Shown here in pieces: positions 6,077 through 43,862 of a stretch of 64,000 nt of DNA. The notes beneath the pieces were generated by a model. It was given only the letters and a program-made list of their open reading frames with translations. It had not been told where the DNA came from and did not search any database. Position 1 is the first letter of the stretch, and each line of letters opens with the position of its first letter. Origin of the DNA: Gemmatimonadota bacterium (lineage in GTDB: Bacteria > Gemmatimonadota > Gemmatimonadetes > Longimicrobiales > Gaopeijiaceae); NCBI GenBank assembly GCA_022826565.1, contig JAJDUP010000003.1, positions 176,373 to 240,372 of the forward strand, given 5' to 3'. A program made the position numbers and the translations under genes.

Positions 6077-6988
6077 TCAGCCGCCCTCCGGAGCGCGCTT
6101 CAGCGCCTCCAGATCCTCCAGCTTCCGCGGCCAGTCGCGCCGCAGCAGCCTTGAAAGGGCACGATCGGCCAGCAACCGCCCCCCTGTCTGGCATTCCGGG
6201 CAGTAGTTGGTCTCGCGCGTGGCGTAGACGATGCGTTGTATGGGGGTGCCGCACTGCGTGCAGGGGTCGCCGTACTTCCCGTGGGCGCTCATGGCCGGGT
6301 GAAAGGCGGTGATCCTGGCCGGGAAGGAGTCGCCGGCCTCCTCGATCAGCCGCTGCGACCATTCGGTGAGCGATGACAGCGTGGCCGCGTGGAGGCGGTC
6401 GATGTCGCGGTCGGTCAGCCGCGAGGTGAGCTTGACGGGCGACAGGCGTGCCCGCAGGAGGATTTCGTCCGAATGGGCGTTGCCGATCCCGGACAGGATG
6501 CGGGGGTCGGTGAGGGCGCGTTTCAGGGTGCGGTTCTCGCGCCGGATCGCCGCCGCGAAGGCCGCGCGCGTCGCGTCGAGCGGATCGATCCCGCCCGGGT
6601 CGTGATCGTGCAGCGCCGCGGCGCCCCGCACCAGATGAAGGGACGCGCGCTTGTGGCTGCTCGCCTCGGTGAGGAGGAGTGTGCCGCGTGCGAAGTCGAA
6701 GGCCGCGTGGCCGAGCTTGCGGGGGATCGGCGCGGCGGGCTTCCTCCACTGGAAGCGGCCCGCGATCATGAGGTGGATGACGAGGAAGAGGTCTCCTTCG
6801 AGACCGATCACGACGCGCTTGCCGAGCCGCTCCAGGGACTCGACCACACGGCCGTGAGCGTGCGCAATCGGCGGATCGAAGCTCTTGAGGAGAGAGGGCG
6901 AACGGATCCGCACCGCTTGCAGTTCCTCGCCGAGGATGCGCGCGCGCAGTGCGTGAAGGTAAAGGGTGACCTCGGGGAGTTCAGGCAC
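6077..6988 (-). CDS. Fpg/Nei family DNA glycosylase
   Basis: A 303-residue bifunctional DNA glycosylase/AP lyase of the formamidopyrimidine type. The N-terminus MPELPEVT gives the catalytic Pro2 and Glu3; Lys57 lies in GKRVV; the helix-two-turn-helix part (LTDPRILSGIGNAHSDEIL) is intact; and a C-terminal zinc finger with paired Cys-x2-Cys motifs (CTQC...CPEC) follows. It removes oxidised bases such as 8-oxoguanine; whether it is Fpg or Nei class cannot be settled by eye. It is the last gene of a three-gene strand. Its ATG overlaps the end of the aldo/keto reductase gene by eight bases, implying coupled translation. Confidence 0.92.
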   Translation of the reverse strand: MPELPEVTLYLHALRARILGEELQAVRIRSPSLLKSFDPPIAHAHGRVVESLERLGKRVVIGLEGDLFLVIHLMIAGRFQWRKPAAPIPRKLGHAAFDFARGTLLLTEASSHKRASLHLVRGAAALHDHDPGGIDPLDATRAAFAAAIRRENRTLKRALTDPRILSGIGNAHSDEILLRARLSPVKLTSRLTDRDIDRLHAATLSSLTEWSQRLIEEAGDSFPARITAFHPAMSAHGKYGDPCTQCGTPIQRIVYATRETNYCPECQTGGRLLADRALSRLLRRDWPRKLEDLEALKRAPEGG

Positions 6989-7991
6989 GGCGCGCGTCCC
7001 CGTCCCGGTTGAGGTCGTACCGCATGATTCTGCCGTGCGGGCCGGCGCGGTCTCGTTCGGCTTCGTAGACGGAGCCGGGAACGGTGCCGGGGACCGCCGC
7101 CTCGAGGCGGGCGATGTTGGCCGGGGTGAGCGTCACCGCACGCGGATCGGGCGCAAGGCCGCGACGGCTGAGACCGACGATCGCGGCGCCGGCCGCCGGG
7201 CGGCTCAGGGCGTAGGCAACCGCCACGTCGGCCATGGTGGCGCCCTCCCGGACGGCGATCTCCTCCAGAGCCGCACGGCCCCGCTCGAGCACGAGCGGCC
7301 CACCGACCTCGCCGACAATCGCACGATACTTGTCGAGCGAGCGGGATTCCCGTGAAGGGCCGTTTGTCAGCAGGCCGCCGGCCAGCGTGCCGTAGCAGAG
7401 GAGCGTCACGCCCCGTTCGAGGCACATCTCCGCGAGTCCGTCCAGTGGGCGGCGATCCAGCAGCGACAGCTGGACCTGATTGGAGACGACCGGGATCCCT
7501 GCGTCCAGGAGGACATGCAGGCTGCGCTGGTCGAAGTTGGTCACCCCGACCTGGCGAATCAGCCCCGCCTCACGCAGCTCCGCCAGCCATTCCGCAGCCT
7601 GCACCCACCCCGGCACGGCAAGATCCCACCAGTGAAACTGGACCAGGTCGAGTGCGTTCACTCCCAGCCGGCGGCGCGATCGCTGCACGATGCGGCGCAT
7701 GTACCCCCGGTCGACGCCGTCCAGCACCCCCAGGTCCGGCACGAACTTGGTGTGAACGACCACCCTCCCGGCCGCATCCCCCCGGCTCGCGATCCACTCT
7801 CCCAGCAGCTTTTCGACGCCTACGTAGATATCGGCGCAGTCCAGCACGAGCGGACCGGGCCGCGCGGCGGCGGCGTCCAGCGCGGCGAATGCAAGATCGC
7901 GGCTCCAACCGGGGCCATGGCCGCGGGACAGCTGCCAGCACCCCCTGATCAGCCTGGAAGGAGACCGCCATGGGCGGGGCGGCCGGTTCAC
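6981..7991 (-). CDS. Aldo/keto reductase
   Basis: A 336-residue NAD(P)H-dependent oxidoreductase with the AKR barrel. Catalytic residues are recognisable: Asp and Tyr in LDCADIYVG, Lys in VVHTKFVP, His in LVQFHWWDL; VGVTNF and the C-terminal AIVGLSR cofactor segment follow. Substrate unknown. The reading frame is open far upstream, but GTG at 7991 forms a four-base GTGA overlap with the stop of the preceding TIGR04076 gene, and homology starts there. Operon: TIGR04076 protein, this reductase, Fpg. Confidence 0.88.
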   Translation of the reverse strand: MNRPPRPWRSPSRLIRGCWQLSRGHGPGWSRDLAFAALDAAAARPGPLVLDCADIYVGVEKLLGEWIASRGDAAGRVVVHTKFVPDLGVLDGVDRGYMRRIVQRSRRRLGVNALDLVQFHWWDLAVPGWVQAAEWLAELREAGLIRQVGVTNFDQRSLHVLLDAGIPVVSNQVQLSLLDRRPLDGLAEMCLERGVTLLCYGTLAGGLLTNGPSRESRSLDKYRAIVGEVGGPLVLERGRAALEEIAVREGATMADVAVAYALSRPAAGAAIVGLSRRGLAPDPRAVTLTPANIARLEAAVPGTVPGSVYEAERDRAGPHGRIMRYDLNRDGDARRA

Positions 7992-37036: not shown

Positions 37037-38434
37037 TCATGTCTGCCTTACATCAATGACTCGCCGGGCCGCGAAGAAGACGCCGTAGGCCGCTCCAGCC
37101 GACAGCAGCCCCCACGCGGGAGGCACCATCCAGCCGGTGTCATCCCACACGGCACGCGCCACGAGCAGCGTGACGACTCCGGCCGCGGCCGCCGCCAGCG
37201 CTTCGCCCGCTCCGGGACGCCGCGAGTGCAGGCCCGCCACAACCGGTACGAAGAGGCTGACGCCCAGCAGCGAATAGAAGATCGTCAGCGACGCCACCAC
37301 GCCGGGCAGCACGATCGCCAGCAGGATCCCCGCGCCGCCGCCCACAACCGCCGCGCCACGCGCCACCCTGAGCACCTGGCGGTCCGTCGCCCGCGGATTG
37401 ACGAAGCGCCGGTACAGGTCCTTCGACAGCGACGTCGACAGCATGAAGAGGATCGCGTCCGCCGAACTGATCTCGGCCGACAGCACGGCCGCCAGTCCCA
37501 GCAGGCCGACCCATGCCGGCACGCCCTGCGTGAGAATGACCGGCAGCGCCGTCTCGGGGTTCTCCAGGCCGGGCGCAACCGCCCGCGCGACCATCCCCAG
37601 CGCCGGCGGCATGAATGCGAAGAGCATCAGCGCGACACCGCACGCCGCGACGCCGAGGCGGACCGTGCGTTCGTCCCGTGCGCCGAAGGTCTTCTGCAGG
37701 ATTCCGGGCGAGACGATGAAGGCCGGGGCGAGCAGCATCAGGTACATCCACCCGGAGTCGCCGTTGCTCATGAAGTCCAGGTGGCCGGGGATGGTGCGCG
37801 CGCTTTCCAGCACGGCGTCGAAGCCGCCCGCACCGTCGAAAGCCAGCGGCACGGCGATCAGGAAGCCGCATACCAGCACGACCAGTTGCACCAGGTTGAC
37901 CCAGGCCGAACTCAGCAGCCCGCCGGCGACGAAGTACGCGGTCATCACCGCGCCGCCGGCGACCGCGCCGAGCCAGCGGGGCGCTCCCGCGACCTCCTGG
38001 AGGATCCAGGCCATCGCGATGAGTTGTGCCGCGAGGATCGCGAGGGTGCCGAGCCAGAGGAGTGCGGCCATCGCCGCCCGGACCGAGGGGCCGTAGCGGT
38101 GCTCCAGGTAGTCGCCGACGGTGAGGAGGGAGTGATCGCGCGCGATGCGCCACAACCTCGGGCCGAGCCAGCAGGCAAGCACCAGGGTGCCGACGCCGGC
38201 CGACCCTACCCACCACCACGCCGAGAGGCCGTTCCGGTAGCCGAGGCTCGCCGCGCCCACCGTGGACCCCGCGCCGATGTTGGCCGCGAGGAGCGTCGCG
38301 AAGAGGAGCCCGGGTCCGAGTCGGCGCCCCGCGACGAAGAAGTCGCCGGTGCCGGAGACGCGGCGGCCGATCGCGAGACCGACCGCCGTGATGAGGACGA
38401 CGTAGACGAGAAGGCCGAGAAGGGTCGGGTTCAT
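37037..38434 (-). CDS. Sodium:solute symporter (SSS) family transporter
   Basis: A 465-residue membrane protein with about 13 hydrophobic segments. GTGDFFVAGRRLGPGL, ANIGAGSTVGAASLGYRNGL (Na+-site region) and AAVLSAEISSADAILFMLSTSLSKDLYRR are typical of the SSS family. Imports an amino acid, sugar or similar solute with Na+; with the downstream hydroxyproline dehydratase and upstream peptidase, an imino-acid substrate is plausible. Its ATG overlaps the P1 peptidase stop (ATGA). Confidence 0.93.
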   Translation of the reverse strand: MNPTLLGLLVYVVLITAVGLAIGRRVSGTGDFFVAGRRLGPGLLFATLLAANIGAGSTVGAASLGYRNGLSAWWWVGSAGVGTLVLACWLGPRLWRIARDHSLLTVGDYLEHRYGPSVRAAMAALLWLGTLAILAAQLIAMAWILQEVAGAPRWLGAVAGGAVMTAYFVAGGLLSSAWVNLVQLVVLVCGFLIAVPLAFDGAGGFDAVLESARTIPGHLDFMSNGDSGWMYLMLLAPAFIVSPGILQKTFGARDERTVRLGVAACGVALMLFAFMPPALGMVARAVAPGLENPETALPVILTQGVPAWVGLLGLAAVLSAEISSADAILFMLSTSLSKDLYRRFVNPRATDRQVLRVARGAAVVGGGAGILLAIVLPGVVASLTIFYSLLGVSLFVPVVAGLHSRRPGAGEALAAAAAGVVTLLVARAVWDDTGWMVPPAWGLLSAGAAYGVFFAARRVIDVRQT

Positions 38435-39594
38435 GCGCCAGGGCCGGTGGGGTCACTGCCCAGGTCGGTGCGATGGCCATCGGTGCGCGGTTCTCCGACC
38501 GGTCCCGGGTCCCCGGCCGGTCCCGGTTCCCGGAGCCCCGGCAGATCTCTCACCGCCGGGATCGACGGGAGGCCGGTGGCCGCCCGCACCGCCTGCACGA
38601 TGGCGTCCGCCATGGCCTCGGCCGCGAGAGCGCCGACCTGGCTGGTGCTGAAGCCGTCGGTGAGGGTGCCCGTGGCGAGCGAGAAGATCGTGTCGCCGTC
38701 GCCGGGGGTGTGGCTCGGCACGATCGCGCGGGCGAAGCCGTCGTGGGCCATCTGCGCGACCTTGGTGGCCTCGGCCTGCGTCAGGAGCGCGTTGGTGGCC
38801 ACGAGGCCGATGGTGGTGTTCTCGCCCGGCGGCGGTGAGGGCGCTTCGCCGCGGAGGATGCGCCGGGCGTCCAGAAACTCGCCACTGCTGCCGAGCGCGC
38901 CTGCCACGACCTGTCCGGTGGCCGGATCGATAATGTCGCCGACGGAGTTGACCACGACGATCGCGCCGACCACGAGGCCGCTCGCGAGGGTGATCGAGGC
39001 TGTGCCCACGCCGCCCTTCATGGCGCCGCCGCCTCGCCCCATCTTGCCCACCGTGGCGCCGGCGCCCGCGCCCACGCTCCCCTCCGCGACGAGGCCGGTG
39101 GAGGCGGCGGTGGCGGCTTCGTAACCGCAGTCGGGGCCGGGCCGCACGCCGCCCGCGACGCGCAGGTCGAAGATGATCGCGCCCGGCACGATCGGGACGA
39201 CGAGGCCACCCCCCACCCGGTAGCCCTCGCCCCGCTCTTCCAGGTAGCGCATGACGCCGTGCCGCGTGGCGAGGCCGAAGGCGCTCCCGCCCGAAAGGAC
39301 GACGGCGTTGACATCCTGCACCGTGTTGACCGGGTCGAGGAGGTCGGTCTCGACGGTGCCGGGAGCGCCGCCGCGCACGTCGACGCCACCGACGGCGCCC
39401 CCATCGGCGATGATCACCGTGCAGCCCGTGGGGTTGTCGGGATAGGTGAACTGTCCGACCCGGATCCCGGGAACGGCCGTGATCGCCCCCGCCGGGTTGT
39501 CCTCCCCGCCTCCGACTTCCTGGGCGGCAGCGGGAATCGGCGCCAGGAGAAGACCGGCCAGTGCCGCGGCCCGGATTGTTGTCTTGCCGGCCAT
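38431..39594 (-). CDS. P1 family (DmpA/NylC-like) Ntn aminopeptidase, exported
   Basis: A 387-residue self-processing peptidase (MEROPS S58-type). A Sec signal ends PAAAQEVGG. VPGIRVGQFTYPDNPTGCTV, NAVVLSGGSAFGLATRHGVM and GAIIFDL are family motifs. The expected autocleavage lies at Asn259|Thr260 in GENTTIGLVATNA, making Thr the nucleophile as in NylC. It releases N-terminal residues, including D- or beta-amino acids in known relatives. The C-terminal ~30 residues are Pro/Gly-rich and probably disordered. Coupled by ATGA to the SSS symporter. Divergent from the sigma-54 promoter region. Confidence 0.9.
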   Translation of the reverse strand: MAGKTTIRAAALAGLLLAPIPAAAQEVGGGEDNPAGAITAVPGIRVGQFTYPDNPTGCTVIIADGGAVGGVDVRGGAPGTVETDLLDPVNTVQDVNAVVLSGGSAFGLATRHGVMRYLEERGEGYRVGGGLVVPIVPGAIIFDLRVAGGVRPGPDCGYEAATAASTGLVAEGSVGAGAGATVGKMGRGGGAMKGGVGTASITLASGLVVGAIVVVNSVGDIIDPATGQVVAGALGSSGEFLDARRILRGEAPSPPPGENTTIGLVATNALLTQAEATKVAQMAHDGFARAIVPSHTPGDGDTIFSLATGTLTDGFSTSQVGALAAEAMADAIVQAVRAATGLPSIPAVRDLPGLREPGPAGDPGPVGEPRTDGHRTDLGSDPTGPGA

Positions 39595-39723
39595 GGTTCC
39601 TCCGCTGTCGTCTTGCTGTCGGCTGGCGCTCGGTTGTCACAGGGGTTGTCCACCGGCTACCGGGCAACCCCGCGCCCGCATCGTCGCTCCAAAGTGGGTA
39701 CGGACGGCAGCCGGCGGCAATGA

Positions 39724-39844
39724 TCGGCCAATCTGGCACTCCGGACGGCAGATCCGAAGCCCGGGTTCGGCCAGTTTGGCAGGAAAGCGAATACAATCGC
39801 CCAGCGCAGTGGCCGATGTCGGGGGACGACCGGCCAATCCGGCA
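39724..39844 (+). promoter_or_regulatory. Three phased GCCA-N3-TGGC palindromes (candidate enhancer sites)
   Basis: Near-identical 15-base elements occur at 39724-39738, 39767-39781 and 39830-39844, each with the core GGCCAATCTGGCA or a close variant and dyad symmetry GCCA-N3-TGGC (third copy one mismatch). Start-to-start distances are 43 and 63 bases, close to four and six helical turns. They lie just upstream of a sigma-54 promoter, where dimers of an NtrC-type activator would bind. Confidence 0.65.
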
Positions 39845-39852
39845 GTCATTTC

Positions 39853-39868
39853 TGGCACGATTATTGCT
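39853..39868 (+). promoter_or_regulatory. Sigma-54 (-24/-12) promoter
   Basis: TGGCACG at 39853-39859, four bases, then TTGCT at 39864-39868 matches the sigma-54 consensus exactly in both boxes and spacing. Transcription would begin roughly at 39880, giving a leader of about 45 bases before the ATG at 39926. An activator ATPase is required by all sigma-54 promoters; none is encoded in this window. Confidence 0.85.
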
Positions 39869-39925
39869 TCGGACAGAAGGCCATGATGCGCCAGCGGGGG
39901 CGCACGACGCCAGGGGGAGGGAAAA

Positions 39926-40177
39926 ATGACGAGGCTACACTTGAGGAAACGACTGAACTGGCGGATTTCGGCACTGGGGCTGGTCCTGTCCATGGGACTG
40001 ATTTTCGGCGCCAGCGGGATTATCCGGCTCAACGCGGCGGAGAAGGAGCATCCCGCCGTCGATGTCGAGGAAGTTTCCGAGCCCGCGTCTCAGCGTGGTG
40101 AGTCCTTCGCGGCACCACCCGTTGTCCCCTCAGAAGGACACCGGGGAGTCAAGAGGAACTTCCAGGAACTCCTGTAG
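39926..40177 (+). CDS. Small exported or membrane-anchored protein under sigma-54 control
   Basis: An 83-residue protein with no recognised family. The very basic N-terminus (RLHLRKRLNWR) is followed by one hydrophobic segment (about 14-33) ending near LNAAEKE, which could be a cleaved signal or an anchor. The rest is a charged, Pro/Glu-rich, probably unstructured tail ending QELL. It is supported as a real gene by a GGGAGGG ribosome site six bases upstream and the perfect sigma-54 promoter 58 bases upstream. The downstream orphan ABC membrane gene starts 112 bases later and may be co-transcribed. Function unknown. Confidence 0.65.
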   Translation: MTRLHLRKRLNWRISALGLVLSMGLIFGASGIIRLNAAEKEHPAVDVEEVSEPASQRGESFAAPPVVPSEGHRGVKRNFQELL

Positions 40178-40289
40178 GCGCTCGCCGCCCCGGCTGAACG
40201 GGGGCATGGAACCGGACACCCGCCGCGCCCATTTGGAGTAGATTCCCGACACTCGCCGCACCGCAGGCCCGTCTACAGTCCGTCGCGCC

Positions 40290-41129
40290 ATGCTCGACCT
40301 CTTCAAACGTTTCGCCGGCCGTTTCACGCTCACCGCCCTGCTCGTAGTCCTTGAAGCCGCCGGCTGGGTGCTCTTCCCCCTGGTAATCGGGCGGGCCATC
40401 GACAGCGTTCTCGCCGAGTCCGCCCGGGGCCTCTACGAACTCGCCGGTCTCGGCATCTTCGCCATGGGGATCGCGGTCCTGCGCCGTCTCGTCGACAGTC
40501 GCGCCTACGCCCGCATCTACACGACGCTCGGCGAGGAAATGGTGGCCAGGGACGCCGGGAGCACCACCTCGACGAAGACCGCGCGTCTGGGGATGCTCAA
40601 GGAGATCGTGGAGTTCTTCGAGGACTCGCTGCCGGAATTGATCATCAGCACCCTGGGGCTCCTGGGCACGGTGCTGATCCTCTCCACCCTCAACATCTCG
40701 ATCTTCTTCGGCTGCCTCGTCGTCATGGCGGCCACCGTCACCCTGTACGCGCTCACCGGCAGGCTCACCACGCGATACAACGAGGGGCTGAACGACGAGC
40801 ACGAGCGGCGCGTGGACATCGTCGACTCCGGCAACCCCGGCCGCGTCGCGCGCCACCTCCGCGCCACGATGCGCTGGAACATCCGTCTCTCAGACCTCGA
40901 AGCCGCCAACTTCGGAATCAACTGGGTGTTCATGATCGTGCTGATCGTCTTCTCCGTACGCGCGGCCGTGGAGCGGACGGTCGACTACGGCACCGTCTTC
41001 GCCATCGTCATGTACGTCTTCCAGTTCATGGAGTCGATGATGATGCTTCCCTTCCACTTCCAGCAGTGGCTGCGCCTGCGCGAGATCTCGGGACGGCTGG
41101 CGGCGGTGGGGACGTCCGGGGACGACTGA
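40290..41129 (+). CDS. Orphan ABC transporter six-transmembrane domain protein
   Basis: A 279-residue protein consisting only of the six-helix ABC exporter membrane domain (as in PF13748, ABC_membrane_3): helices near 12-45, 50-65, 115-165 and 215-260, with the coupling-loop-like EHERRVDIVDSGN between. No nucleotide-binding domain is attached or adjacent, and the sequence ends naturally after LREISGRLAAVG. It may pair with a distant ATPase or work as a non-transport membrane protein. ATG 40290 begins immediately at the first helix. Confidence 0.8.
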   Translation: MLDLFKRFAGRFTLTALLVVLEAAGWVLFPLVIGRAIDSVLAESARGLYELAGLGIFAMGIAVLRRLVDSRAYARIYTTLGEEMVARDAGSTTSTKTARLGMLKEIVEFFEDSLPELIISTLGLLGTVLILSTLNISIFFGCLVVMAATVTLYALTGRLTTRYNEGLNDEHERRVDIVDSGNPGRVARHLRATMRWNIRLSDLEAANFGINWVFMIVLIVFSVRAAVERTVDYGTVFAIVMYVFQFMESMMMLPFHFQQWLRLREISGRLAAVGTSGDD

Positions 41130-41303
41130 CGGGACTGGCGGGCCGGGAATCGGCGGCATGTATGGGACACCGCCGATCTCGTCGCACGGGATCTGTGCGG
41201 AACCGGATGCGCTCGCCCCGGGCCGGTTCGATCATGTACCTTGCCACCGCTCCGGTACCGCACCGACCGTGCCGAGCCGAACCGCAAACTCGACGGAGGA
41301 CCC

Positions 41304-43862
41304 ATGACTCGCTCCCTCAAGCGCCTGCCGCTGATCGCGGCGGTCCCGCTTCTCGCCGCTGCCTGCTCCACCGATCCGGCGGGTTCCGGCGGCGACACCG
41401 GAACGACCGACGGCCCCCCGACCTTCGCGGTCGACCCCTCCTGGCCGCAGCAGCTGCCGAACGACTGGATCCTGGGCTCGATCACATCGGTCTTCGTCGA
41501 CGACCGGGATCACGTCTGGATCACGCACCTGCCGGAGACGCTGACGCCCGAGGAGATCGCCGCGGTGCAGGATCCGCCGCTCGGAGAGTGCTGCGTACCC
41601 GCGCCCGTCGTCATCGAGTTGGACACGGAGGGGAACGTGGTTCAGGGGTGGGGCGACCCCGCCACCCAGGATGTGTCGGAGTATCCGCGCAACTCCCATG
41701 GGCTCTTCATCGACCACAACGGGTTCGTGTGGATCGGGACCTACCGCCATCACCGCATCATGAAGTTCACCCGCTCGGGCGAGCACCTGATGACGCTCGG
41801 TGCCTACGACGAGAACGGCGGCAGCGCGGATACCAGCCTGCTGGGCGGACCGGCCGGGATGTGGGTCGATCCCGAGACCAACGAGGTCTTCGTGGCGGAC
41901 GGCTACCGAAACCGGCGCGTCATCGTCTTCGACGCCGACACGGGTGCATACCTGCGGCACTGGGGCGCGTACGGCGAGCCCCCCGACGACGAAGCCGAGT
42001 ACGACTACGCCGGCCGCACGGACACCCTCTTTCCGCCGCCCCAGTTCTCGACCGTGCACGGGCTCGTCGGCTCCAACGACGGCCTCATCTACGTGGCCGA
42101 CCGGCGCGGCAACCGCATCCAGACCTTCCTGCGCGACGGCACGTTCGTGGCCGAGAAGACCATCGCGCCGCTGACCCGGGCATCCGGGTCCGCCTTCGTG
42201 CTGGCGATGTCACCCGATGCCGAGCAGCGGTGGCTCTACCTGGCCGACGGGACCAACCACAAGGTGTGGATCCTGGAGCGATCCAGCATGGAGGTGATGG
42301 GCGAATTCGGGCGCGGGGGCCGCCAGGCGGGCCAGTTCATCCGGCCGCACGGGATGGATGTCGATTCGCACGGCAACATCTATGTGGGCGAGGCGTCGAC
42401 GGGCCGCCGGGTGCAGAAGTTCGTGGTGTCGGGGGGTGGGGGCGACGGGATGGCCGCGGGTGATGCCGACGCGGCAGGGGCGGGTGCGGATGCCGGAGAG
42501 GGTGACGCGGCCGCGGGGGCCGGCCGCCAGGAAGCCGCAGCCGGCCAGGCCGACTACGAGTACGACGCCAACTGCGCGGCCTGGCCTGCCGTGACGGGTC
42601 TGCACACCGTTGGCACGGTCGATTTCGAGGTCACCGATCACCTGCGCAGTTCCCACTACGCGCCTGCTCCGACCACCTCCCGCCGCATCTTCGTGCGGGC
42701 CTGGTATCCGGCTGCGGGTGCCGGAGGGTCCGAGGCGCGGCGGTACTTCACCGAGACGGAGGCAATGGTCCTTCCCGGGGCGCTCCTGGTTCCGATGCAA
42801 CAGCCGCCCGACGCCTTCCGCGCATGCGCATCCCTCGCCACGAACAGCTACACCGGCGCGCCGCCCGCCGGGGGCAGCTTTCCGGTCATCGGCTTCAATC
42901 ACGGGTACACGTCGTATCCGGCGCAGCAGTCCGCGCTCTTCGAGCACCTCGCGGCGAATGGATACGTCGTGCTGTCGGTGGGGCATCCCTACGAGTCGGG
43001 AGGGATCGTCTACCCGAACGGTGACGCCGTTACGATGTCGCCGCGCATCATGGACGACATGATGCGCTACGCTGCGAACACGGGGAGCATGACGGTGCAC
43101 TACCCCCCGAGTCTGTCGGCCGCTTTGGAGGCTTTTCCGGAGTACATCAGCGCACTCAGGACGACTTCTCTGGGACAGCTCGCCCAGGTCTGGCAGTCCG
43201 ATGTGCAGTTCGTGCTGGATCGGCTCGAAGCGAAGGACGTCCCCGACGCCGCGGCCGGGGTGGCGGACGCGATCGACCATGGAAGCCGCGGCTACATGGG
43301 GATGTCGTACGGGGGCTACATCGCGGCCATGCTTGCCCAGGGCGACCGGCGCGCGAAGGCGGCGATCAACCTCGACGGCGGATACTGGACCGGCGAACTG
43401 ATCGATGCCGACGTGCGCACGCCCTTCCTCATGCTCAACTCCGACCCGACCGCGGTCATGGCGACCCTGCCGGAGGAATTCAACGTCTATCGCGGCGAAT
43501 TCGGGTCCGGCGCCCCGACCGCGGGTGATCTCGCCTACGAGCGTCTGGCCACGGCGGGGCTTCGGGATGACATCCACAGGATCATGATTCCGGGAATCCA
43601 GCACGTCGCCATCAGCGACTTCCCCGAGATCCTGGCGGAGCCCACGGCGGCCATGCTGCTGGGCGAACCCGGCATTGTGTCGCAGCTCACCGCAATCCAG
43701 AACGACCTGGTGCTCGGCTTCCTCGACCGGTATGTGAAGGGGGTCGATTCGGACTACCCGGGCGAGGTGCTGACGCGGTATCCCAAGCTGATGGTGCGCG
43801 ATCGCGACGACATTCGCCGGCAGGCGGAGGCGCTCGGTTTGGGGCCGTCACAAGATGGTTGA
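41304..43862 (+). CDS. Fusion: NHL-type beta-propeller plus PAF-acetylhydrolase-like alpha/beta hydrolase, lipoprotein
   Basis: An 852-residue protein. Signal and lipobox LLAAAC (residue 17) come first. Residues about 30-375 form an NHL/six-bladed propeller (VFVDDRDHVWITHLP, GNRIQTFLRDGTFV, HGMDVDSHGNIYVGE), as in peptidyl-amidating-lyase-like proteins. An Ala/Gly/Asp-rich linker (about 376-415) leads to an alpha/beta hydrolase (about 430-850) with VIGFNHGYTSYPAQQSALFEH, the nucleophile Ser668 in MGMSYGGY and IQHVAISDFPEI providing the late His. The second half resembles PAF acetylhydrolase/lipase proteins. GGAGG precedes the ATG. Substrate unknown; the propeller may recruit or position it. 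Confidence 0.85.
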   Translation: MTRSLKRLPLIAAVPLLAAACSTDPAGSGGDTGTTDGPPTFAVDPSWPQQLPNDWILGSITSVFVDDRDHVWITHLPETLTPEEIAAVQDPPLGECCVPAPVVIELDTEGNVVQGWGDPATQDVSEYPRNSHGLFIDHNGFVWIGTYRHHRIMKFTRSGEHLMTLGAYDENGGSADTSLLGGPAGMWVDPETNEVFVADGYRNRRVIVFDADTGAYLRHWGAYGEPPDDEAEYDYAGRTDTLFPPPQFSTVHGLVGSNDGLIYVADRRGNRIQTFLRDGTFVAEKTIAPLTRASGSAFVLAMSPDAEQRWLYLADGTNHKVWILERSSMEVMGEFGRGGRQAGQFIRPHGMDVDSHGNIYVGEASTGRRVQKFVVSGGGGDGMAAGDADAAGAGADAGEGDAAAGAGRQEAAAGQADYEYDANCAAWPAVTGLHTVGTVDFEVTDHLRSSHYAPAPTTSRRIFVRAWYPAAGAGGSEARRYFTETEAMVLPGALLVPMQQPPDAFRACASLATNSYTGAPPAGGSFPVIGFNHGYTSYPAQQSALFEHLAANGYVVLSVGHPYESGGIVYPNGDAVTMSPRIMDDMMRYAANTGSMTVHYPPSLSAALEAFPEYISALRTTSLGQLAQVWQSDVQFVLDRLEAKDVPDAAAGVADAIDHGSRGYMGMSYGGYIAAMLAQGDRRAKAAINLDGGYWTGELIDADVRTPFLMLNSDPTAVMATLPEEFNVYRGEFGSGAPTAGDLAYERLATAGLRDDIHRIMIPGIQHVAISDFPEILAEPTAAMLLGEPGIVSQLTAIQNDLVLGFLDRYVKGVDSDYPGEVLTRYPKLMVRDRDDIRRQAEALGLGPSQDG

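Follow-up and report, generated by a model that had tools for sequence, protein, structure and literature searches.

In this study, we describe PepA, a predicted membrane microprotein encoded behind a sigma-54-type promoter in a 64-kb window (the whole stretch of DNA that was analysed, 64,000 nt) of a 4.39-Mb genome in 61 contigs, hereafter G000. Tentatively, we propose that PepA is an accessory subunit, made under certain conditions, of an ABC-type membrane protein that is orphan and ATPase-less; in this genus of Gemmatimonadota, the genes of the two co-occur. The features of the locus are collected in Table 1.

Table 1. Features of the pepA locus, in coordinates of the window.
Feature	Position	Strand	Description and basis
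S58-family peptidase gene	38431..39594	-	divergent, conserved neighbour (locus landmark); profile match, relatives' loci
GCAACC hexamer	39664..39669	+	candidate cis element; upstream of 18/20 pepA promoters
Palindrome 1, GCCAATCTGGC	39727..39737	+	exact GCCA-N3-TGGC; triplet common only to G006
Palindrome 2, GCCAGTTTGGC	39770..39780	+	exact GCCA-N3-TGGC; triplet common only to G006
Palindrome 3, GCCAATCCGGC	39833..39843	+	one mismatch; perfect in G006; 20 nt before the -24 box
Sigma-54 (-24/-12) promoter TGGCACGATTATTGCT	39853..39868	+	exact boxes; boxes in 20/20 genus pepA loci
Shine-Dalgarno-like GGGGGAGGG	39913..39921	+	ahead of pepA; read from sequence
pepA, 83-codon ORF	39926..40177	+	predicted single-pass membrane microprotein; helix at about residues 4-38, acidic disordered tail
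PF13748 ABC_membrane_3 gene	40290..41129	+	orphan six-helix ABC-exporter-type membrane domain, proposed partner; profile match

Sigma-54 is a bacterial sigma factor that is unable to open DNA without an ATP-driven activator. The first-pass annotation had claimed an exact sigma-54 promoter ahead of pepA, and our comparisons bear this out. Among the 127,968 positions of the window (both strands), TGGCACGATTATTGCT is the only one with at least 10 of the 12 box letters. In the whole genome, the exact pattern TGGCACG-N4-TTGCW is found at two sites, one of which is the pepA promoter. When one mismatch is allowed, G000 has 21 sites as compared to 38 for the reversed control pattern; thus, only exact sites carry weight. 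Across the 20 pepA loci of the genus (19 selected by a loose pattern, with none lost, and that of G010 added by hand), the boxes score 12/12 in 15, 11/12 in four and 10/12 in one. The GG and GC of the -24 and -12 boxes are kept in all of them, and the boxes lie 69-87 nt ahead of the ATG. In bits, the information content reaches 1.87 for the boxes, as compared to 0.80 for the spacer and 0.37-0.39 for the flanks. By comparison, the sigma-54-type promoter thus appears to be real, its boxes being kept while spacer and flanks drift. Transcription would start near 39878 and, given the conserved boxes, would need RpoN and an enhancer-binding protein with its signal. A lack of conservation of promoter or peptide in relatives had been named as the result that would speak against the annotation; 20 of the 23 genus genomes have both. 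A conserved hairpin in the 5′ leader was also considered and discarded, with a mean z of -0.93 against letter shuffles and no conservation in all loci.

The surroundings of pepA are stable. Of the 18 relatives' loci that were fetched, all carry a symporter gene and 17 the divergent S58-family peptidase gene, which is missing from L042. A proline-racemase-like gene is also present in 17, and in L041 the sequence stops short of this gene. A simple scan of positions 39500-41500 found neither a terminator nor a sigma-70 promoter near pepA. Further downstream, positions 41304-43862 of the window read as a fusion of NHL-repeat and PAF-acetylhydrolase-type parts, and several relatives match one half only within the fetched stretch.

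Three GCCA-N3-TGGC elements upstream of the promoter had been annotated as enhancer sites. Their spacings of 43 and 63 nt are right (44 and 63 in the sister genome G006) and two of them are exact, but the third carries a single mismatch. With starts at 126, 83 and 20 nt ahead of the -24 box, the outer two sit where enhancers lie, and the inner one is near the promoter. A palindrome at 20 nt is near for a classical enhancer; the low-affinity NtrC sites at glnA lie close to the promoter. About 0.003 such clusters are expected per 64 kb, for a pattern fitted to these very copies, and the clustering is beyond chance. The enhancer role did not hold up at the level of the genus. Indeed, the triplet is found in only two of the 20 promoters, those of G000 and G006 (19 loci were scanned with one mismatch allowed, and G010, the 20th, for exact copies, of which it has none), and we therefore rejected the palindromes as genus-wide enhancers. 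These two genomes are alike across the whole upstream region, which makes the pair a weak test of triplet conservation. G001, G004 and G019 have one exact copy each, GCCAAAATGGC, at -22. No GCCA-N3-TGGC lies within 300 nt of the other sigma-54 sites read in G000 and G006. The hexamer GCAACC, picked by eye, lies upstream of 18 of the 20 pepA promoters, as compared to a mean of 2.6 and a maximum of 7 in shuffles; in 11 of these 18, it falls between -57 and -71 relative to the -24 box. It could instead belong to the divergent gene. A longer word, GGGCAACC, does not exceed its shuffle maximum of 8 at pepA.

A first protein search gave matches in 20 of 59 genomes, G000 included; one of these 20, that in G045, was set aside as a 40-residue stretch within what reads as an unrelated protein. 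An alignment search then gave 20 of the 23 genus genomes, with G010 gained. The protein has 68 residues in G010 and 81-85 in the other genus members. Among the 98 other family genomes, nine matches were obtained at E ≤0.1. In the three of these nine that were read (G071, G072 and G034, three other genera of the family), a 10/12 sigma-54-like site with a departing -12 box precedes the matched stretch by 73-95 nt; G034, whose genome is 77% complete, has no RpoN match. G017 (L042, G017:C30) has a tandem duplication of pepA, in which only the first copy is preceded by a sigma-54 promoter.

A database search returned 72 PepA-like proteins of 77-116 residues, 69 of which were aligned with that of the window (alignment A2, 70 rows; P0011, P0035 and P0068 were left out). 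In Pfam, nothing matched PepA of the window at E 0.001. When the 20 members were compared to NCBIfam, NF033207 (midcut-by-XrtH) gave weak matches in three (best E 0.013), the protein of the window being unmatched, and NF007876 matched one member at E 0.14; a clear family-level match to midcut-by-XrtH was not found among them. By its name, midcut-by-XrtH is a family of processed proteins and the match, if real, would speak weakly for processing. Judged from these searches, PepA seems to fit no curated family convincingly and to belong to a family of microproteins that curated libraries do not cover, as the annotation of a small uncharacterised protein, whose 83-codon ORF is confirmed, had suggested. 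Over the 14 PepA pairs computed, omega ranges from 0.06 to 0.62. In the six of these pairs that reuse no genome (G000/G006, G015/G002, G011/G020, G019/G004, G018/G012 and G003/G014), alignment columns 1-35 show 11 nonsynonymous changes in about 451 sites as compared to 33 synonymous changes in 179, and the tail shows 57.5 in 634 as compared to 46.5 in 213. The tail evolves faster than the helix region and is still under some constraint.

PepA is a short protein with one conserved membrane helix, which is predicted to insert into the membrane. The AlphaFold2 model has a single helix (residues 4-38) followed by a disordered tail, with a mean pLDDT of 61. Residues 1-14 carry a net charge of +5 and the tail one of -4, which predicts an N-in orientation. 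The mean frequency of the top residue is 0.72 for residues 14-34, 0.66 for 1-13, 0.47 for 46-66 and 0.62 for 67-72. G18, S22 and A29 are invariant in all 70 rows of A2, and G71 in the tail is nearly so. Conservation is helically periodic, with a peak at 105 degrees and a modest permutation p of 0.03 at 100 degrees. The annotation had also considered a secreted peptide. The pattern is the reverse of what a secreted signal would lead one to expect: in the alignment, the C-terminal part is not conserved above the leader, and the better conservation of the helix favours a membrane microprotein over a secreted peptide. An A-x-A-like stretch follows the helix in many members, those of G001, G004 and G019 being without it, and leaves cleavage possible.

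The orphan ABC membrane gene that had been annotated downstream was confirmed by a match to PF13748 of 148.7 bits (cut-off 27), with no match to an ATPase or peptidase domain. In the model of its product (mean pLDDT 78), six helices are long and some others short. Foldseek ranks ABC exporters such as BmrA and SAV1866 first (best E 0.0019, none at ≤0.001), with query TM-scores of 0.25-0.56 among the 50 matches listed and the ATPase-less SbmA at rank 38; in the sequence search against solved structures, TAP1 is the only match (E 0.0086). The suggested link between the small protein and this gene stands: 20 genus genomes have both, three have neither (G005, G008 and G016) and none has only one. 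Their common absence may come from one deletion of adjacent genes or from missing contigs (G016 is 86% complete), so this co-occurrence involves few independent losses.

The ABC gene comes next after pepA in 15 of the 20 genomes (13 of the 18 fetched loci, plus G000 and G010) and lies on another contig in the other five (G002, G013, G015, G017 and G019). The relocated copies of G002, G013, G017 and G019, to which our readings apply, form one clade (support 99/97), although the symporter tree puts these genomes apart. Between lineages, the copies are 90-91% identical across the ORF plus no more than about 21 bases beyond it, with no common flanks; those of G002 and G013 have flanks in common. 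These copies occupy three genomic contexts (L141:4274-5108, L142:4846-5680, L143:4083-4918 and L144:3897-4731). In G022, the gene is in place, yet its sequence is one of the other clade. Taken together, the conflict of the two trees and the identity limited to the ORF suggest that the ABC gene was lost at the locus and regained elsewhere, apparently by horizontal transfer as a single gene, and pepA would be the reason for this regain. The 400 nt upstream of the four relocated copies hold no sigma-54 site (best scores 7-9/12); with the gene elsewhere in five of 20 genomes, this indicates that co-transcription with pepA is not essential.

RpoN was matched in G000 and in 113 of the 121 family genomes. 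G000 also has seven PF00158 matches, corresponding to four complete bEBPs, in which GAFTGA or GSFTGA was read, and three partial and weak ones; a kinase/activator gene pair lies at C39. Among the loci of the bEBP genes, GCCA-N3-TGGC occurs three times in L098 (at 711, 1491 and 3665; bEBP gene at 6224-7585) and is absent from L099-L101. The dyad found upstream of pepB (see below) is absent from L098-L101. Thus, no site points to one bEBP gene as the activator.

Across the genus, 41 exact sigma-54 sites were counted in 18 of the 23 genomes, as compared to nine for the reversed control. Downstream of them lie pepA (15), pepB (11), 11 other ORFs whose N-termini were judged by eye to be of the exported, lipoprotein or outer-membrane type (L075, L076, L078, L079, L081, L088, L096, L103, L106, L107 and L108) and, in four cases, nothing clear (L069, L073, L085 and L105). 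Cysteine-containing exported-looking proteins are encoded behind the exact sites of L088, L096, L108 and L075 (G012, two in G003, and G022). Lipoprotein-type ORFs that resemble each other (..ACEE(A/G)T.PPPVG..) stand behind sigma-54 sites in four genomes (L003, L076, L081 and L103), the site of L003 being inexact. Sigma-54 was proposed to control the bacterial exterior, its promoters being tied to envelope and lipoprotein genes (passages of PMC3162934), and the exported-looking ORFs of the genus fit this proposal. A passage search of that paper gave no 'small protein', and Gemmatimonad only within the title of a reference.

The other exact site of the G000 genome precedes a second microprotein gene, pepB (L002/L155, G000:C39:294181-294439; 58 residues). 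PepB has 58-60 residues, is unrelated to PepA and was matched in all 23 genus genomes. Its family matches are weak, with one member each for xseB/Exonuc_VII_S (0.08-0.1) and Peptidase_S8 (0.12). Of the 23 genus genomes, 22 have ATT as the start codon of pepB and one has ATG; outside the genus, it is ATT in G034 and G072 and ATG in G071 and G079. Over 43 loci, the starts fall at the same aligned place, with ATG in 22, ATT in 11, ATC in three, TTG in three, GTG in two and two unclear, an argument for ATT as the genuine start of pepB. AUU starts are rare but known, as for Borrelia pncA (passages of PMC13398362).

The pepB boxes score 12 in 11 genus genomes, 11 in nine, 10 in two and 9 in one, out of 12. 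In other genera, sigma-54-like boxes precede pepB in part, many scoring only 6-8; with RpoN so widespread in the family, its absence is uninformative on pepB promoters. Among the dyads tried, TTTC-N13-GAAA came out best, being found in 15 of the 23 genomes at 138-162 nt upstream; in 20 shuffles, no dyad exceeded 7 of 43. With at most two mismatches, a longer form gave 16 matches in 13 genomes, 14 at pepB, where one site was counted on both strands, and two elsewhere (G011 and G020). This long dyad, of the type TTTTC-N12-GGAAAA..GTACAC (L097:6039), lies some 140 nt upstream of the -24 box of pepB and is nearly confined to this gene. By its enhancer-like position, the pepB dyad is a candidate enhancer. 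Among exact dyads, no enhancer common to pepA and pepB was found. Words of 7 and 8 nt that occur in both upstream regions are mostly G+C-rich and near the shuffle maximum, except GCCCGCGC (12 as compared to a maximum of 8). The absence of a common dyad and the separate elements, GCAACC for pepA and TTTC-N13-GAAA for pepB, suggest that the two genes likely use different activators.

We can propose the following sequence of events for PepA. Transcription of pepA, from boxes conserved by comparison, would occur via RpoN and one of the bEBPs of the genome with its signal. PepA is then predicted to insert N-in/C-out through residues ~14-34, which would leave the acidic tail outside the inner membrane. 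The conserved face of the helix (G18, S22, L25, I26 and A29) would pack against a membrane partner. We propose the PF13748 protein as this partner because of its co-occurrence with pepA and its repeated re-acquisition; it need not be controlled by sigma-54, so that PepA would be the component under regulation, serving to switch or tune this partner. The ABC protein may also be kept for its own sake.

Other explanations have to be weighed. PepA could be a sigma-54-induced feedback microprotein acting on a sensor kinase or a protease in the membrane, the ABC gene being merely an old neighbour. The predicted single-pass helix with its conserved face, the displacement of the ABC gene in five genomes with no sigma-54 site in the four read, and the kinase/activator pair at C39 are all compatible with this role. 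The co-occurrence of pepA and PF13748 (20 both, three neither) speaks against it, and no kinase is found among the five window proteins scanned around pepA, the flanks of relatives having been compared through matches to window proteins only. We regard it as rather unlikely, though as the most serious competitor. The proposal that sigma-54 simply drives a range of exported proteins, PepA being a general envelope protein with no specific partner, draws on the 37 of 41 exact genus sites that precede pepA, pepB or exported-looking ORFs and on the tie of sigma-54 to the bacterial exterior (passages of PMC3162934). The small residues that are invariant on one face of the helix, together with the single co-occurring membrane protein, suggest a specific contact instead, and we give this proposal a low probability.

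An equally low probability is attached to PepA being a precursor, with its helix a cleaved signal or cut in the membrane and its tail secreted as a signalling or structural peptide. The A-x-A-like stretch, the nearly invariant G71, the presence in 17 of 18 loci of the divergently oriented S58-family peptidase gene and the weak midcut-by-XrtH matches could all be read in this way. Nonetheless, a cleaved signal is expected to drift more than its cargo, whereas here the leader is better conserved and the tail evolves faster; three genomes have no A-x-A stretch, and neither an ATPase nor a peptidase domain was matched in the ABC-type neighbour. Finally, near-matches to the promoter mean nothing alone, as the excess of the reversed control at one mismatch illustrates, and one could suppose a chance promoter before an ORF that is not a gene. 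We rejected this as extremely improbable: the boxes are present in 20/20 loci and unique in the window, the exact genus sites outnumber the control by 41 to 9, and pepA is under purifying selection.

The accessory subunit that we favour would have counterparts among known systems. The six-helix exporter-type membrane domain modelled for the PF13748 neighbour resembles those of BmrA, SAV1866 and SbmA, but the neighbour differs from BmrA and SAV1866 by having no ATPase domain match, and its best Foldseek E is 0.0019. SbmA also works without an ATPase. KdpF, CydX and MgrB are short proteins that span the membrane once and have a membrane complex or a kinase as their target. PepA is likewise predicted to be short and single-pass; no sequence link to them was seen, and it differs by its greater length (mostly 81-85 residues) and its acidic tail. 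In Escherichia coli, the small membrane protein AcrZ binds the membrane part of AcrB and tunes this transporter (passages of PMC7267776). The likeness lies in the pairing of a small membrane protein with a transporter, the partner of PepA being proposed only. AcrB differs as an RND pump, pepA differs by its sigma-54 promoter, and no curated family links PepA to AcrZ. In listings of the open-licence literature on sigma-54 and small membrane proteins in Gemmatimonadota and Longimicrobiales, we found no paper on such a protein.

A broader and rather doubtful proposal is that sigma-54 runs a set of membrane microproteins in these bacteria, in which PepA would switch an ATPase-less ABC-fold transporter transferred between species as a single gene, and PepB would combine a far-upstream dyad enhancer with a conserved AUU start. 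Altogether, 26 of the 41 exact genus sites precede two tiny predicted membrane proteins, which provides two concrete genes that can be tested, with a candidate partner for PepA and, for PepB, a candidate enhancer together with an AUU start that is rare and conserved. If the broader proposal is true, PepB would be gated twice, at transcription by its activator and at translation by the discrimination of initiation factor 3.
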